DNA from: Candidatus Rokuibacteriota bacterium
GTDB lineage: Bacteria > Methylomirabilota > Methylomirabilia > Rokubacteriales > CSP1-6
Length of the DNA stretch: 32,225 nt
Assembly (NCBI GenBank): GCA_003220495.1
Contig: QHSP01000109.1
Coordinates: 1-32,225, forward strand
Direction: 5' to 3'
In this document: positions 1,667-9,245 of the stretch, piece after piece
Numbering within the stretch: the first letter of the stretch is position 1
How the letters are laid out: every line of letters begins with the position of its first letter
Notes under the pieces: generated by a model
Told to the model about the DNA's origin: nothing
Database searches by the model: none
Seen by the model: the letters and a program-made list of their open reading frames with translations, nothing else
Program-made: the position numbers and the translations under genes

Positions 1667-2650
1667 GTGCCTCTCCCCGCGTTGCCGGTCGGCTGGGGCG
1701 TGATCGGCGCCACGTCGCAGGTCGCCCAGAAGGCGGTGCTGCCCGCGATCGTCGCCAGCCCCGGCGCGCGCCTCGTCGCGGTCGCAAGCGAGAGCGCGGA
1801 CGACGGCGGCGCCGGCTGTTTCGAGCCGCTGCGGGTCCATCGCGCCTACGACGCCGTGCTCGACGATCCCGAGGTCGAGGCGGTCTACGTGCCGCTGCCC
1901 AACAGCCTGCACCGCGAGTGGGTCGTGCGCGCCGCCGCGGCCGGCAAGCACGTGCTCTGCGAGAAGCCGCTCGCCCCCACGGTGGCCGACGCGGAGGTGA
2001 TGACGGCCGCGTGCGAGATCGCGGCGGTCGCGCTGTGCGAGGCCTACATGACGCCGTTCCATCCGCGCGCGGCGGCGCTCGACACGCTCGTCGCGTCCGG
2101 CCGGCTCGGCGCGCTGCGCTTCGCTCGCGCGGCGTTCACGGGCGTGCTCGACCGCCGCGACGACCATCGCTGGCGTCCCGAGATGGGCGGCGGCGCGCTG
2201 CTCGACGTCGGTATCTACTGCGTCGCGCCGCTCCTGGCGGCTGCGGGCCGAACGCCCGCGCGAGTGGAGGCCTCGGCGACGCTGGCGAAGTCCGGTGTGG
2301 ACGTGTCGTTCTCGGGTTGGCTCGATTTCGGCGACGGGTTCACCGCGACGATCGAGTGCTCGTTCGACGCCCCGGAGCGGCAATTTCTCGAGATCGTCGG
2401 GACCGAGGCGTCGCTCGTCGTCGATCGCGCGTACACGCCCGGACCCGCGGACACGACGCTCACGCTCCGCGGCCGTGATGGTCGGGTGGAGGAGATCGTC
2501 ACGGGCGGCGCCGACCCGTATCGGGAGATGCTCGAGCATTTCCAGACGGTCGTGCGGACCGACGCCGCGCCGCGCCGGTCGTGCGCCGCCTCGATCACCT
2601 TGCTCGGCGTCCTCGAGCGCCTTCGCGCGGCGGCCGGGCTGGCGGCATGA
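1667..2650 (+). CDS. Gfo/Idh/MocA family oxidoreductase
   Basis: A 327-residue NAD(P)-dependent oxidoreductase. I take the GTG at 1667, 1 nt after the previous stop, because the Rossmann segment GWGVIGATSQVAQKAVLPAI then begins within the first ~15 residues, as is usual; a longer frame upstream only overlaps the previous gene. The nucleotide loop is GVIGAT rather than the commoner GxGxxG. The EKP hallmark is AGKHVLCEKPLAPT, and GGGALLDVGIYC is typical of the C-terminal domain (dihydrodiol dehydrogenase/xylose dehydrogenase-like group). It overlaps the downstream glycosyltransferase by ATGA, so the two are probably translationally coupled. Substrate not determinable; the two adjacent oxidoreductases may do successive steps on one sugar. 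Confidence 0.88.
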   Translation: MPLPALPVGWGVIGATSQVAQKAVLPAIVASPGARLVAVASESADDGGAGCFEPLRVHRAYDAVLDDPEVEAVYVPLPNSLHREWVVRAAAAGKHVLCEKPLAPTVADAEVMTAACEIAAVALCEAYMTPFHPRAAALDTLVASGRLGALRFARAAFTGVLDRRDDHRWRPEMGGGALLDVGIYCVAPLLAAAGRTPARVEASATLAKSGVDVSFSGWLDFGDGFTATIECSFDAPERQFLEIVGTEASLVVDRAYTPGPADTTLTLRGRDGRVEEIVTGGADPYREMLEHFQTVVRTDAAPRRSCAASITLLGVLERLRAAAGLAA

Positions 2651-3927
2651 AGCGAATCGGCGTCATCTCCGTTCACACCTGCCCCCTGGCCGCGCTCGGC
2701 GGCAAGGAGACCGGCGGGATGAACGTCTACGTCCGCGAGGTCGCGCGCCACCTCGGCCGGCTGGGGCTCGAGGTCGACGTCTTCACGCGCAAGCAGACGC
2801 CGGGTGTCCCGACCGTCGTCCCGCTCGGCTGGGGCGCGCGGGTGGTGCATATCGACGCGGGCCCGCAGCGGCCGGTGCCGCCGCCCGAGATCGTGCCCGA
2901 CCTCGACGAGTTCACCGACGGCGTGATGGCCTTCCAGCGCCGATCCGGCGCCGAGTACGCGCTGTTTCACGGTCACTACTGGCTGTCCGGCCTGGTGGCC
3001 GTCGAGCTCTCCCGACGTTTTCGCGGCGTTCCGGTGGTCCAGATGTTCCACACGCTGGGCGTCGTCAAGAACGCGCTGGCCGATCAGCCGGGGGACCAGG
3101 TCCCGCAAGCGCGGGTCGACGCCGAGGCGAGAGTGGCCGCGCGGGCGGACCGCATCGTGGCCGCGACGCCGCTGGAGAGCGCCGAGCTCGCGTGGTACTG
3201 CGGCGCCGACGTCGAGCGCGTGCGGACCATTCCCTGTGGAGTCGACGTCGAGCTCTTCAGCCCGGGCAGCACCGTCGCGGCGCGCGCGCGGCTGGGCCTG
3301 CATGCCGAGTGGGTCCTTCTCTTCGTGGGCCGGCCGGCTCCGGTCAAGGGTCTCGAGGTCCTCTTGCAGGCGCTCGCGCGCCTGAAGGCCGACGGGCTCG
3401 GCCGGGCGGACGTGCGCCTGGTGATCGTCGGCGGCGAGCTCAGCGACGAGGGCCACGAGGATCGCGCGCGGCTGCGGGCGCTGGCCGACTCGCTCGGCGT
3501 CGGCGCGTGGGTCGATTTCAAGGGACCCGAGCCGCAGTCGGCGCTCCCCGAGTACTACCGCGCCGCCGATCTCTGCCTGGTGCCGTCGCACCACGAGTCC
3601 TTCGGGATGGCGGCGCTCGAGGCGATGGCGTGCGGCGCCACGGTCGTCGCCTCGCGAGTCGGCGGCCTCGCCACGACGATCCAGGACGGCGTCACCGGCG
3701 TCCTCGTTCCGCCGCGCGACGAAGTCGCGCTCGCCTCGGCCATCGGATCGCTGCTCGCCGACGGACCGCGGCGGCGCACGCTCGGCCGGCACGCCGCCCG
3801 CTGGGCGCAGAGCTTCGCCTGGCCGACCGTGGCGCGAGCGCTCGTCGATCTCTACGAGGAGCTGGTGCCCGATCTGCGTCGGCCGGCGCCGGCTCCGGCC
3901 AGCGTGAACTGCGCGCTGGCGCTGTAG
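2647..3927 (+). CDS. Glycosyltransferase family 4 (GT4, GT-B fold)
   Basis: 426 residues. The ATG lies in an ATGA overlap with the preceding stop and opens directly on the N-terminal Rossmann strand MKRIGVISVHTCPLAALGG; GGMNVYVRE is typical of sucrose-phosphate-synthase/MshA-like GT4 enzymes. Other motifs are HGHYWLSGL, the linker IPCGVDVELFSPG, the donor-binding segment LLFVGRPAPVKG, and the C-terminal E-x7-E region HESFGMAALEAMACGATVVA with GGLATTIQDGVTG. It should transfer a sugar from a nucleotide sugar with retention of configuration in the cytoplasm. With the two oxidoreductases upstream it probably builds or modifies a glycoside. Sucrose-phosphate synthase is possible, but no phosphatase partner is visible. 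Confidence 0.88.
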   Translation: MKRIGVISVHTCPLAALGGKETGGMNVYVREVARHLGRLGLEVDVFTRKQTPGVPTVVPLGWGARVVHIDAGPQRPVPPPEIVPDLDEFTDGVMAFQRRSGAEYALFHGHYWLSGLVAVELSRRFRGVPVVQMFHTLGVVKNALADQPGDQVPQARVDAEARVAARADRIVAATPLESAELAWYCGADVERVRTIPCGVDVELFSPGSTVAARARLGLHAEWVLLFVGRPAPVKGLEVLLQALARLKADGLGRADVRLVIVGGELSDEGHEDRARLRALADSLGVGAWVDFKGPEPQSALPEYYRAADLCLVPSHHESFGMAALEAMACGATVVASRVGGLATTIQDGVTGVLVPPRDEVALASAIGSLLADGPRRRTLGRHAARWAQSFAWPTVARALVDLYEELVPDLRRPAPAPASVNCALAL

Positions 3928-4993: not shown

Positions 4994-5878
4994 ATGACGA
5001 AGCCAGCGGGGTCTTCGGCGGCGGTGGTCGAGCGTCGCATCGTGGTCGCCCCCGGTGTCGAGCTGCACGTCGAGGTGCGAGCGGGGAATCGGGCGGCGGC
5101 TCCCTTCGTGCTCGTCCACGGCCTCGCGTCCAACGCGCGGCTCTGGGACGGCGTGGCCGAGCATCTTCACGCGGCGGGCCACACCGTGGTCGTGATCGAT
5201 CAGCGCGGGCACGGTCGCTCCGACGCTCCAGACTTCGGTTACGATCTGGACACCGCAGTCGCTGACCTTCTCACCGTGATCAACACGCTCGAGCTCGATC
5301 GTCCCGTTCTCGCCGGCCAGTCCTGGGGCGGCAACGTGGTGCTCGAGCTCGGCTGGCGGCGGCCGGAGGCCGTGCGCGGCATCGCCTGCGTCGACGGCGG
5401 CGTCATCGAGCTGTCCCAGGCGTTTCCCTCCTGGGAGGACTGCCTCGCGGCGCTGACGCCGCCGGCGCTCGACCACCTGACACTCGCCGAGCTCGAGACG
5501 CGCATTCGCAAGAGCGTGCCGCACTTCACCGATCGCGCCGTCGCGGCGTACCTGCATTGCTTCCGTGCGCGCCCCGACGGGACCATCGAGGCGCGGCTTT
5601 CCCTCCGCCGTCACCTCTCGATCCTGCGCTCGCTCTGGGAGCATCGTCCCTCGACCCGCTGGGCGACCCTGAAGACGCCTACGATGCTGCTGCTGGCGGA
5701 CAGCGGCGACGGCACCAGGACGTCTCGCAAGCGGAGCGCCGAGGCGGTGGCGCTCGCGGCCGGGGGCGCGATCCGCTCGGTCTGGTTCTCGCCCGGCCAC
5801 CACGACCTGCATCTCGAGTCTCCCGAGCGGGTGGCCGAGCTGTTCTTGCAGGCGCTCCGCGAGGGGTTCTTCGCGTGA
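4994..5878 (+). CDS. Alpha/beta-fold hydrolase
   Basis: 294 residues. The oxyanion-hole motif VHGLASNARLWDG lies near residue 41, followed by VVVIDQRGHGRSD, typical of epoxide-hydrolase/haloperoxidase-like members. The nucleophile elbow is GQSWGG (Ser110). The C-terminal catalytic His is in GHHDLHLESPERV. Likely reactions are hydrolysis of an ester, lactone or related bond; substrate unknown. There is no signal peptide, so it is cytoplasmic. It overlaps the next gene by GTGA (5875-5878), so it is probably co-translated with the S51-like/CysS_C fusion. Confidence 0.88.
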   Translation: MTKPAGSSAAVVERRIVVAPGVELHVEVRAGNRAAAPFVLVHGLASNARLWDGVAEHLHAAGHTVVVIDQRGHGRSDAPDFGYDLDTAVADLLTVINTLELDRPVLAGQSWGGNVVLELGWRRPEAVRGIACVDGGVIELSQAFPSWEDCLAALTPPALDHLTLAELETRIRKSVPHFTDRAVAAYLHCFRARPDGTIEARLSLRRHLSILRSLWEHRPSTRWATLKTPTMLLLADSGDGTRTSRKRSAEAVALAAGGAIRSVWFSPGHHDLHLESPERVAELFLQALREGFFA

Positions 5879-7185
5879 GCGCACGGACGCCGCGGATCCT
5901 CGCGATCATGGGCTCGGGCGAAACCGCGCCTACGATGGTCACGCCGCACCGCGAGATCGTTGCGCGGCTGGGCGAGCCGACCCCGCGCGCGGTCCTCCTC
6001 GACACGCCCTACGGGTTCCAGGAGAACGCGTCCGAGATCACGGAGCGCGCCGTCGAGTACTTCGCCCATCGCGTGCAGCTGACGATCGAGGCCGCCGGGT
6101 TTCTCGGGCCGCTCGCGGTCGACCAGAGCCATCGCTCGCCGCTGGCGGAAGCCGCCGCGCTGTCGCGGCTGCGCACGGCCGGGTTCGTCTTCGCCGGGCC
6201 GGGGAGTCCCTCGTACGCGCTGTCGGTCTGGCGAAGCTCGCCGGTGCCCGAGGCGCTCACCACCAAGCTCGCCGAGGGCGGCGCCGTCGTCTTCTCCAGC
6301 GCGGCGGCGCTGACACTCGGCCGCTTCAGCGTGCCGGTGTACGAGATCTACAAGGTCGGTCTGCCCGTGCACTGGCTCGACGGGCTCGATCTCATGCGGG
6401 CCGCCGGCTTCGACGGATCCTGCGTGGTGATCCCGCACTACGACAACGCCGAGGGCGGCACGCACGACACGCACTACTGCTATCTCGGCGAGCGGCGGCT
6501 CGCGGTGATGGAGGGGATGCTGCCCGACGACGCGTGGGTGCTCGGCATCGACGAGCACACCGTGCTGCTGGCCGATCTCGATGCGAAGACCGTCTCCGTG
6601 TCCGGGCGCGGCGGCCTCACCGTGCGCCGCCGCGGCAAGTCGCGCGTGTTCCCCTCGGGAACGCGGCTCACGGTGGACGAGCTGTGCTCGGCCGCCCGCG
6701 GCGAAGCTGAAACGGGCCGCCGCGCGGCGGAGCGCCCGGCCGCCGCTGCCGACGCCGAGGCCCCGACGCCGGGCAGCGGGCCGGCGCCGAAGCGATCGCC
6801 CCTCCTGACCGAGGTGACGCGGCTCGAGCAAGTGTTCGAGACGGCGATCGCCGGGCGCCGAGCTTCCGAGGCGGCCGAGGCGATTTTGAATCTCGACCGG
6901 ACCATCGCCGAGTGGGCGGCCGATACGCTGCAGACCGACGATCCAGACCGCGCGCGCGCCGTTCTCCACTCGCTGGTTCAGCGACTCGGCGAGGCGGCGG
7001 CGGGCGGGCTGCGCGATCCTCGAGAGCTCCTGGCTCCCCTGGTGGAGAGCCTGATCACGCTCCGGGGAGAGCTGCGCGCCGCGAAAGCATGGGAGCTGGC
7101 CGATCGCGTCCGCGACCGGTTGATCGCGGCCCGCATCGAGCTCCGGGATACGCCCGGCGGGACCGTCTGGGAGCTGCGCGAGTAG
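5875..7185 (+). CDS. Cyanophycinase/S51-like domain fused to CysRS C-terminal-like domain
   Basis: 436 residues, GTG start in a GTGA overlap. Residues ~7-270 look like a class I glutamine-amidotransferase-like/peptidase S51 (cyanophycinase-type) domain: ILAIMGSGETAPTM, FVFAGPGSPSYAL, the presumed nucleophile region VVFSSAAAL (Ser142), and GIDEHTVLL, close to the GIDE signature of cyanophycinases. A low-complexity Ala/Pro-rich linker (~275-305) follows. Residues ~310-436 are helical and end in AWELADRVRDRL and RDTPGGTVWE, the pattern of the C-terminal tail of cysteinyl-tRNA synthetases (CysS_C). No synthetase catalytic motifs (HIGH, KMSKS) are present. Possible role: peptidase or amidase acting on a tRNA-linked or cysteine-related substrate, which is speculative. 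Confidence 0.78.
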   Translation: MSARTPRILAIMGSGETAPTMVTPHREIVARLGEPTPRAVLLDTPYGFQENASEITERAVEYFAHRVQLTIEAAGFLGPLAVDQSHRSPLAEAAALSRLRTAGFVFAGPGSPSYALSVWRSSPVPEALTTKLAEGGAVVFSSAAALTLGRFSVPVYEIYKVGLPVHWLDGLDLMRAAGFDGSCVVIPHYDNAEGGTHDTHYCYLGERRLAVMEGMLPDDAWVLGIDEHTVLLADLDAKTVSVSGRGGLTVRRRGKSRVFPSGTRLTVDELCSAARGEAETGRRAAERPAAAADAEAPTPGSGPAPKRSPLLTEVTRLEQVFETAIAGRRASEAAEAILNLDRTIAEWAADTLQTDDPDRARAVLHSLVQRLGEAAAGGLRDPRELLAPLVESLITLRGELRAAKAWELADRVRDRLIAARIELRDTPGGTVWELRE

Positions 7186-7295: not shown

Positions 7296-8993
7296 CTATG
7301 CCCCCGCCGTCTGATAGCGCGCGTTGCGGATCACTTTGCCGGGATAGCTTCCGGTGTGCTGCCCCTTCTCGAGCAGCACCTCGCCGTTGACCACGGTGTA
7401 GTAGATTCCCTCGGCCAGCTCGCGCATCCGCCAGCCGTTGGCCGGGAAGTCGTGCACGACGTCTTCCTTGACCGGCGCGACGGTGTCCGGGTCGAAGACG
7501 ACGAGGTCCGCCGCCATCCCGGGCTGCACGAGCCCGCGGTCGTAGATGCCGAAGGCCGAAGCCGAGTCGTACGTGAGCCGCCGCACGGCGTGCTCGAGGG
7601 ACATGATCTGCTTCTCCCGCACCCAGTAGCCGAGCAGCCGGGTCGGGTTGCTGACATTCGAGTGAAACTGCACGTGGGCGCCGCCGTCGGTGAGCCCGAC
7701 GACCGCATACGGGCTCCCGAGGATCTGCGCGACCGCCTCGGTGTCCATGTTGATTTCGCCCAGGGTGAACACGGTTTCCAGGTTTTCCTCGACGGCCAGA
7801 TCCAGGAACGCGTCGAGCGGATGCTGGCCCTTGGCCTTCGCGATCTCGGCGATGTGCCTGCCCGCGAGGCCGCGGTTCTTCGCGAGCTTGGGCTCTTCGA
7901 CGAGCATGAGGTCCCATCGCTTGGAGAAGGTGGAGTCGGGGCCGAGCGGCGCGTCGACTTCCTCGCGCAGCTTCGCGCGGATCGCCGGATTGGCGTACGC
8001 GGTGAGCTTGTCGGCGTCGGCGCCCTGGAGGATCGGCAGCCAGGTCGGCATGCTGCGGAACACCTGGCAGTTCTTCATCGTGAACCGGTTGACGATGCTG
8101 CCCGGGTTGCAGAGCGGGATTGCGCGGATGCCCTGCTTCACGGTCTCCTCGACGTGCGCAAGATGCTCCTTCCACCGCCCTGGCTGCCGGGCCTGCTCGA
8201 GCAAGGTGTTGTACATGATCGGCCGGCCGCTCGCTTCCGAGATCCGGGAGAGGAGCTTGTCCTTCAGCTCGGGGTTGGTCCCGCCGCCGCACTGCATGAT
8301 GCCGGTGCCGGCCTCGCGCAGGACGTCGGCCAGCGCGAACAGCTCCGATTCCGGGGCGCAGGCCGCGGGGATGCGCTTGCCCGCGATGTCGAAGTGGTTC
8401 ATGTTCCGCGTGATCGAGAGCCCGAGCGCGCCGGCCTCGAGCGACTCGCGCACCAGGCGGCGCATCACCTCGAGCTCGGCCGCCGTGGCGTCACGCTCTG
8501 AGCACTCCTCGCCCATCGCGTAGAGCCGCACGGCCGAGTGGCCGACGAGCGTGCCGACGTTGACACCGAGCCGCTGGCCGATCGCGTTCATGTACTGGGG
8601 GAACGTCTCCCAGTTCCAGGGCACGCCGGCCTGCAGCACGTCCATCGGGATGGCCTCGACGTACGAGAGCATGCCGGCCAGCTTCTCGCGCGCCTCGGCC
8701 TTGACCGGCGCCAGCGCGAGCGAGCAGTTGCCGATGATCACCGTGGTGGAGCCGTGGTGGCAGGAGTAGGTGCAGAGCGGATCCCACACGACCTGCGCGT
8801 CGTAGTGGCAGTGGTTGTCGATGAAGCCCGGCGCGACGACCCGCCCGTCGGCCTCGATCGTCTGACGCGCGGACCCGCCGAGGCGTCCGAGCTCGACGAT
8901 CTTTCCCTTTGCGACACCGACGTCGCCGTGAAACGCGGGACGCCCGGATCCGTCGATGACGCGTCCATTCTTGATGAGCAGGTCGTAGGTCAT
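7296..8993 (-). CDS. N-acyl-D-amino-acid deacylase / D-aminoacylase-type amidohydrolase
   Basis: 565 residues, amidohydrolase superfamily. The start at 8993 is set by a strong AAAGGAG (plus-strand 9001-9007) 7 nt upstream and by MTYDLLIKNGRVIDGSG, the normal beginning of this family; a longer frame to 9068 lacks such support. The metal motif is GFIDNHCHYD (His61, His63); GNCSLALAPV, TDGGAHVQFH and the closing PGMAADLVVFDPDTV are typical of D-aminoacylase/amidohydrolase 3 proteins. It likely hydrolyses an N-acyl amino acid or related amide in the cytoplasm using bound zinc. It is transcribed alone, convergent with the S51-like gene. Exact substrate uncertain (N-acyl-D-amino acid, hydantoin-like or other amide). 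Confidence 0.85.
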   Translation of the reverse strand: MTYDLLIKNGRVIDGSGRPAFHGDVGVAKGKIVELGRLGGSARQTIEADGRVVAPGFIDNHCHYDAQVVWDPLCTYSCHHGSTTVIIGNCSLALAPVKAEAREKLAGMLSYVEAIPMDVLQAGVPWNWETFPQYMNAIGQRLGVNVGTLVGHSAVRLYAMGEECSERDATAAELEVMRRLVRESLEAGALGLSITRNMNHFDIAGKRIPAACAPESELFALADVLREAGTGIMQCGGGTNPELKDKLLSRISEASGRPIMYNTLLEQARQPGRWKEHLAHVEETVKQGIRAIPLCNPGSIVNRFTMKNCQVFRSMPTWLPILQGADADKLTAYANPAIRAKLREEVDAPLGPDSTFSKRWDLMLVEEPKLAKNRGLAGRHIAEIAKAKGQHPLDAFLDLAVEENLETVFTLGEINMDTEAVAQILGSPYAVVGLTDGGAHVQFHSNVSNPTRLLGYWVREKQIMSLEHAVRRLTYDSASAFGIYDRGLVQPGMAADLVVFDPDTVAPVKEDVVHDFPANGWRMRELAEGIYYTVVNGEVLLEKGQHTGSYPGKVIRNARYQTAGA

Positions 8994-9245
8994 CTCGTCG
9001 CTCCTTTCTGAGACACAACCGTCGCGGGCACTTCTCTCGAGGACACTTCGGAAGGCGCCGTAATCCACCCCCGGGGTTCAAGCCAGGCCGTCAGCCTGGC
9101 CACGGCGGGATGGTAGCTCAGAAGCGAGCGGTCCGATAGCGATAGCGGGGGAGGGCAGGACGGCCGGCATTACCGAGGAGCGCCACGGCTGTGCCGGGCT
9201 GCTTCCGAGCGTTGGGGGCTTGGGGGCCATTCGGGGCCCCCATGT
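8994..9245. other. Intergenic region with hairpins, no gene seen
   Basis: This stretch carries the ribosome-binding site of the amidohydrolase at its left end, a 7-bp hairpin GCCAGGC/GCCTGGC (9082-9088, 9094-9100), and the G-run repeat and hairpin at 9205-9244. I found no credible coding frame and no clear -35/-10 pair. Confidence 0.6.
9205..9244 (+). repeat. G-run intergenic repeat (copy A) with terminator-like hairpin
   Basis: The segment contains GGGGGCTTGGGGG followed by a hairpin TGGGGGCC (9221-9228)/GGCCCCCA (9235-9242). Both halves recur in inverse orientation between livK and livH (28583-28606 and 28653-28674) but in a different arrangement. It lies 1 nt beyond the stop of the minus-strand gene at 9246, so it may also end that transcript. 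Confidence 0.55.

Follow-up and report, generated by a model that had tools for sequence, protein, structure and literature searches.

The window analysed here, a stretch of 32,225 nucleotides from Candidatus Rokuibacteriota bacterium, contains two genes on the same strand, the first for an alpha/beta-hydrolase and the second for a fusion of an S51-like hydrolase with the C-terminal domain of a cysteinyl-tRNA synthetase (CysRS) (Table 1). The fusion ORF begins with a GTG codon. Longer alternative starts lie upstream (TTG at 5557), and GTG was chosen because it fits both the conserved start of the protein and the overlap with the hydrolase gene. The translation contains all of the segments GSGETAPTM, SSAAAL, GIDEHTVLL and ADRVRDRL...RDTPGGTVW, on which an earlier sequence-only reading had based the proposal of a cyanophycinase-like domain joined to the end of a CysRS. 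HIGH and KMSKS were looked for in the translation and are absent, as that reading had said. A scan of the fusion region for promoters and terminators found none above shuffles.

Table 1. Features of the gene pair in the window
Feature	Position	Strand	Remarks or basis
Alpha/beta-hydrolase gene, 294 aa, GQSWGG nucleophile motif	4994..5878	+	4-bp overlap with the fusion gene
Fusion gene, S51-like hydrolase and CysRS C-terminal domain	5875..7185	+	436 aa and stop
S51-like domain, residues ~7-273	5893..6693	+	Fold matches to 6nqc, PepE and cyanophycinase; residue conservation
Putative triad	Ser142 6298-6300; His188 6436-6438; Asp226 6550-6552	+	Triads of PepE, MccG and Orf2 as described in PMC9239234 and PMC11078827
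Variable linker, predicted disordered, residues 274-305	6694..6789	+	pLDDT <50 at residues 280-303
CysRS C-terminal-like domain, helical bundle and tail, residues 306-436	6790..7182	+	hhalign, Foldseek, VIA
Anticodon-reading tail, residues 386-434	7030..7176	+	Ungapped alignment with 1li5; conservation in 124 tails

Domains of the fusion protein

Searched on its own, the window protein has no match in Pfam at E ≤ 1. In NCBIfam, its tail is recognised by TIGR00435, the model for CysRS (E 9.7e-6), and its N-terminal part weakly by the cyanophycinase model (E 0.016); phmmer against the PDB returns CysRS chains, in the tail only (6ujd, 7.3e-5; 1li5, 4.4e-4). An AlphaFold2 model made with an alignment of 36 family members (A1) has a mean pLDDT of 84.4 and a disordered linker at residues 280-303.

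The assignment of residues ~7-270 to the S51/cyanophycinase type is borne out by the profile of the 36 members, by its match to the PDB and by the predicted fold. Peptidase_S51 of Pfam matches 17 of the 36 members at E ≤ 0.1 (best 2.9e-4), though not the window protein at E ≤ 1, and the A1 profile finds the cyanophycinase-like exopeptidase 6nqc in the PDB at 7.1e-6. For the N-terminal domain, a Foldseek search with the A1 model returns 6nqc (2.0e-13), dipeptidase E (6.8e-11), PepE (5.1e-10) and cyanophycinase (5.6e-9), and VIA gives Z scores of 23.7 (6nqc), 21.9 (3en0) and 20.2 (1fy2) across 211-235 residues. The N-terminal domain is thus predicted to have the S51 fold, and in the model it is as near to peptidase E and to the acI peptidase 6nqc as to cyanophycinase. 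The term cyanophycinase-like stands for the relation by fold, but not for the enzyme class: TIGR02069 matches 33 of the 36 members at E ≤ 0.01 (best 1.8e-8), and the window protein scores 14.7-16.5 bits against a cut-off of 126.6 bits.

Catalytic triads have been described for PepE (Ser120-His157-Glu192) and MccG (Ser133-His168-Asp196) in PMC9239234, and for Orf2 (Ser134-His170-Asp198) in PMC11078827. By sequence position, Ser142, His188 and Asp226 of the window protein form a putative Ser-His-Asp triad. Each of the three is kept in 127 of 128 S51 rows (from 127 loci, one of which has a second, tailless S51 ORF), so that the nucleophile assumed in the sequence-only reading appears to occupy the conserved S51 position, accompanied by invariant His and Asp. 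The GxSAG nucleophile elbow, called highly conserved among S51 enzymes in PMC11078827, is mostly F[A/S]SAAA in the fusion family, with Ala at position 144 in 124/128 rows and Gly in 2/128. Because of this departure, we call the domain S51-like and regard it as a divergent branch, and activity is not assured. Position 200 of the window protein presumably corresponds to the Arg that possibly binds the Asp side chain in PepE; it is His in the window protein and Ser in 26/128 rows.

For the C-terminal domain, the relation to CysRS was recovered in several ways. CysS_C (PF23493) matches 31 of the 36 members at E ≤ 0.1 (best 2.4e-8), and the A1 profile finds CysRS in the PDB at 3.1e-10. A single hhalign comparison of the 36 family C-termini with 22 CysRS C-termini aligned 135 columns with a probability of 99.4 (E 4.8e-22). 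In Foldseek, the full model matches the CysRS-tRNA-Cys complex 1u0b_B (1.1e-3, probability 1.00); the C-terminal domain modelled alone (pLDDT 91.4) has 1u0b_B as its sole PDB fold match at E ≤ 0.001 (6.2e-4). VIA places model residues 311-435 on residues 332-461 of CysRS in 1u0b with a Z score of 8.0 and an rmsd of 16.4, the high value being attributed to two sub-parts that are set differently. VIA with the C-terminal domain alone returned generic helical bundles and no CysRS among the 50 matches listed, and was set aside. The hhalign and fold matches indicate that the C-terminal 130 residues represent the whole C-terminal region of CysRS, beyond the last 50 residues. As judged by profiles and predicted structure, the domain is homologous to the CysRS C-terminus over its whole length, in agreement with the earlier assignment, and structure prediction gave no sign of a C-terminal half unrelated to CysRS. 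A chance similarity of the tail is ruled out by the CysS_C, PDB profile, 1u0b fold and hhalign matches. A comparison of A1 with alignment A4 shows that the DDDFNT signature has been lost from the helical part of the family.

According to PMC12684709, G34 of tRNA-Cys is contacted by Arg427, Asp436, Trp432 and Arg423 of CysRS. In an ungapped alignment with 1li5, Arg423, Arg427, Trp432 and Asp436 of E. coli CysRS correspond to Arg397, Arg401, Trp406 and Asp410 of the window protein. Among 124 S51-linked tails, these positions hold Arg (124/124), Arg (123/124), an aromatic residue (124/124) and Asp (124/124). All four occur together in 123/124 tails if any aromatic residue is allowed for Trp, the exception being Lys for Arg401, and in 23/23 CysRS tails. 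The retention goes along with considerable divergence: the family tails share 37-62% identity (median 51%) with whichever of the 23 CysRS tails is closest, the commonest state of a tail column averages ~58%, and residues found only in CysRS (for example Glu 424) have mostly disappeared. The six most conserved of the 49 tail columns are 397, 401, 406, 410, 413 and 425; the chance that the four contacts fall within the top six is 7e-5 on the assumption of equal columns, with the reservation that the rows are related and that CysRS conserves these columns as well. Most of the helical part is gone in the short members of the family, and the contact tail is kept in nearly all of them. Since the helical part is degenerate or lost and the contact tail is kept, selection would act on the part that reads RNA. 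The retained contacts are the main evidence, at the level of sequence, for continuing selection on anticodon reading. No columns are more conserved than these in CysRS either, so that demands of the structure could play a part.

The fusion is thus an S51-like hydrolase with a CysRS anticodon-binding domain, and neither a cyanophycinase nor a CysRS.

Distribution, gene neighbourhood and host genome

A scan of genome contigs identified 260 stretches that encode relatives, of which the best 80 were retained. All of these (80/80) encode full-length proteins that end in a CysRS-like tail. The architecture is found in Rokubacteria, in Acidimicrobiia and other Actinomycetota, in Chloroflexota and in one Acidobacteria bin; since it was retrieved full-length in several phyla, a two-domain protein is far beyond chance. 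The collected S51 loci (n=127) comprise the window, the 80 best relatives, 4 Streptomycetaceae/Nonomuraea records, which include Streptomyces plasmids, and 42 further loci. The fusion genes of the 4 records are annotated as 'hypothetical protein' in 2 and have no annotated feature in the other 2. A tail match is present in 124/127 loci; of the remaining three (L154, L168, L191), L168 and L191 come from genomes with an in-frame stop in the gene. At L169, a second, tailless S51-type ORF (2232-3026, minus strand) lies directly next to a short fusion gene that is encoded on the other strand.

Matches to the N-terminal domain were found in 13/95 genomes of the phylum of the window, in 54/148 genomes of the class around L079 (Acidimicrobiia; one match, in G151, is a confirmed fragment) and in 37/151 genomes of the phylum around L078 (Chloroflexi), where the remaining matching genomes have tail matches only, in ORFs of CysRS size. 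Outside the family, matches to PF23493 (60 genomes) lie in ORFs big enough for CysRS, and the four inspected were all of the CysRS type (4/4). Two ideas about origin were examined. A tree of the tail, built on few columns, does not reject a single origin (p-AU 0.133), and several independent captures of the tail were not retained as an explanation. A phage or mobile origin was discarded as well, with no relatives in viral contigs or phage records and no PHROGs or PADLOC matches.

The coupling to an alpha/beta-hydrolase, which the sequence-only reading had remarked upon, is conserved. In a profile search, the hydrolase gene was found directly upstream of the fusion gene and on the same strand in 69/81 loci. 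The overlap is usually 1-4 bp, with a gap of -1 or -4 bp in 36 listed loci; in other loci the neighbour was hidden because the greedy ORF caller had lengthened the fusion ORF upstream. Ser110 and His270 of the alpha/beta-hydrolase are conserved in 36/36 seed rows. The hydrolase is absent beside the fusion in 12/81 loci (L034, L044, L046, L047, L051, L070, L075, L076, L077, L080, L091 and L094). No other neighbour was found to be as widely shared among the loci.

Some other genes recur within particular lineages. DnaE-type genes occur near the fusion in two lineages. Genes of this kind were noted at L075:3583-5160, L094:2-2980 and L063:7390-11313: some loci without the alpha/beta-hydrolase lie near Y-family polymerase and DnaE-type genes, and in the Chloroflexi loci a DnaE gene follows the fusion gene. 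In many loci of the Acidimicrobiia type, a ZnuABC-type zinc uptake cluster (ABC-3 permease, ATPase, ZnuA) lies directly downstream in convergent orientation, and the zinc permease cluster is present in 46/81 loci (for example L037:7327-8963 and L084:3460-4497). We have treated the zinc-uptake genes as a lineage neighbour. CysRS is a zinc enzyme, so this neighbourhood may deserve a look. In the window, a gene for an Amidohydro_3 family enzyme of 590 aa (7296-9068, minus strand) is convergent with the fusion gene, and this neighbour cluster was found in 6/81 loci, all from Rokubacteria. There are no tRNA genes beside the fusion within the window, and no tRNA-Cys gene was found near it in the 60 loci scanned of 80.

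In the genome of the window, a single CysRS passes the cut-off, and there is a tRNA-Cys gene whose anticodon is GCA, the latter seen among 10 fetched stretches with 16 tRNA genes of 39 matches. As the host has an ordinary CysRS and tRNA-Cys(GCA), the fusion is an extra protein. MshC of mycothiol synthesis is a CysRS paralogue; a link to mycothiol was considered and dropped, with no match over the cut-off in the genome of the window. The CysRS of this genome (L100) has a variant tail, GWLVEDTPAGPRLTPKGR, that lacks the usual final Trp; tails of this type are also found on the short Chloroflexota S51 members L155-L159. Genome G107, of the class around L079, encodes two CysRS-type enzymes (L206 and L207), and L206 has KMAKS instead of KMSKS.

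Possible function and relation to known systems

The most economical explanation of the architecture is that the CysRS domain brings the S51-type hydrolase to tRNA-Cys. Our leading reading, which we hold tentatively, is that an S51-fold Ser-His-Asp hydrolase docks on tRNA-Cys by anticodon recognition and acts in trans. The captured C-terminal domain would dock on the GCA anticodon of tRNA-Cys, the flexible linker would bring the aminoacylated end of that tRNA, or a CysRS-tRNA complex, within range of the hydrolase, and the hydrolase would there remove a wrong or damaged aminoacyl group. The translationally coupled alpha/beta-hydrolase might handle the product or a related ester. RNA binding, catalysis and the joint action of the two proteins are what we infer. 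S51 enzymes prefer an acidic (Asp) residue, which makes oxidised cysteine on tRNA-Cys a natural candidate; it would be an attractive substrate, its sulfinic acid resembling aspartate. This substrate and the role of the alpha/beta-hydrolase are speculative. The idea of the sequence-only reading that the protein might act on aminoacyl-tRNA-derived molecules is unproved, and the kept anticodon-contact residues lend it support.

The anticodon domain of CysRS lies a long way from the acceptor end, so that a single fusion molecule would have to stretch far or the protein to oligomerise. To our knowledge, CysRS needs no editing for most near-cognates. We also count against the docking reading that the gene is patchy (13/95 phylum genomes) and that the hydrolase is missing in 12/81 loci. 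In its favour, S51 action on aminoacyl-nucleotides is documented for MccG, which cleaves an isoAsp-nucleotide that inhibits AspRS (PMC9239234), and editing domains that borrow the tRNA recognition of their parent synthetase are described in PMC3973320. The full version of this reading, tRNA-Cys-specific quality control in which an S51-fold reader of the GCA anticodon clears damaged cysteine together with the coupled alpha/beta-hydrolase, is one that we consider unlikely.

Alternatively, the fusion could be a sensor: uncharged tRNA-Cys, building up at cysteine shortage, would bind the tail and activate a peptidase, which would release cysteine or other amino acids from small peptides. Gcn2 works in a comparable way, with a HisRS-like domain that responds to uncharged tRNA. 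The sensor model would account for the retained anticodon contacts and for a peptidase fold that is that of dipeptidases. The problem of reach would vanish, since anticodon recognition alone suffices. In Streptomyces, a dipeptidase E mutant has altered transcripts of aminoacyl-tRNA biosynthesis (PMC11078827). However, no reader of the acceptor end that could tell charged from uncharged tRNA was seen in the fusion, and its active-site motifs are unlike the GxSAG of dipeptidase E. We consider the sensor improbable.

The fusion could also detoxify synthetase inhibitors of the aminoacyl-nucleotide type, with the CysRS tail positioning it at the target complex or serving as a decoy. The Asp as third member of the triad, as in MccG and Orf2, and the patchy distribution that includes Streptomyces plasmids would fit, and MccG, an S51 enzyme, cleaves processed microcin C and confers resistance (PMC9239234). 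Against this, the plasmid regions inspected have no annotated microcin genes, no microcin-type ORF was found among the Pfam-tested window ORFs near the fusion, and the occurrence in 54/148 genomes of the class around L079 points to a broader role. Moreover, we know of no MccG example that needs a tRNA-reading domain. There is only a small chance that detoxification is the function.

Finally, the tail could have ceased to bind RNA and merely help an ordinary S51 dipeptidase to fold or to oligomerise, as the degenerate helical bundle of generic fold, the 3/127 loci lacking a detectable tail and the poor retention of CysRS-only residues such as Glu 424 might suggest, but the near-invariant Arg, Arg, aromatic residue and Asp, against a column average of ~58%, would then go unexplained, and we regard this as quite unlikely.

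With respect to known enzymes, the fusion resembles peptidase E/dipeptidase E (6a4r, 7ffp, 1fy2) in fold (Foldseek 6.8e-11 to 2.6e-9; VIA Z 20-21), in the Ser and His positions and in the acidic third residue of the triad. It differs in the replaced GxSAG, in the extra CysRS-like domain and in the family-specific invariant motifs DTPYGFQEN, GPGSP, PVYExYK and PHxxN. The closest solved relative of the N-terminal domain, in sequence and fold, is the cyanophycinase-like exopeptidase 6nqc from an acI actinobacterium, a chain of 259 residues that lacks the CysRS tail. With CysRS (1u0b, 6ujd, 8qhp), the fusion shares the C-terminal helical bundle, the anticodon-reading tail and the four G34 contacts; unlike CysRS, it has no HIGH or KMSKS motif and no catalytic synthetase domain, and it has lost DDDFNT. 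The short forms have little more left than the tail. The catalytic domain of the ProRS proofreading domain INS is unrelated to the S51-like domain. INS serves tRNA-Pro, whereas the tail of the fusion is of the tRNA-Cys type; the likeness lies in a hydrolase whose specificity is set by a synthetase-type tRNA reader (PMC3973320). MccG (S51 clade V, microcin C resistance) is similar by its description in PMC9239234, with an S51 fold, a Ser-His-Asp triad and action on aminoacyl-nucleotides tied to the inhibition of a tRNA synthetase; no tRNA-binding domain of MccG was seen in that account.

A search of the open-licence PMC literature found no description of the fusion or of a tRNA-Cys trans-editing factor. 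The findings suggest that the gene family encodes a hitherto undescribed enzyme for which tRNA-Cys is either the target or the switch. Synthetase-derived RNA readers on other catalytic domains have earlier revealed proofreading and starvation sensing. A two-gene unit that is conserved in several phyla and pairs a CysRS anticodon reader with a peptidase-type hydrolase is a candidate, open to direct testing, for a role specific to tRNA-Cys in a cell whose CysRS is normal. With it, the reach of the S51 family, for which action on aminoacyl-nucleotides was recently demonstrated, would widen towards tRNA. If the quality control reading is true, the system would be widespread and undescribed, and with its hydrolase the S51 family would gain its first member that acts on tRNA.
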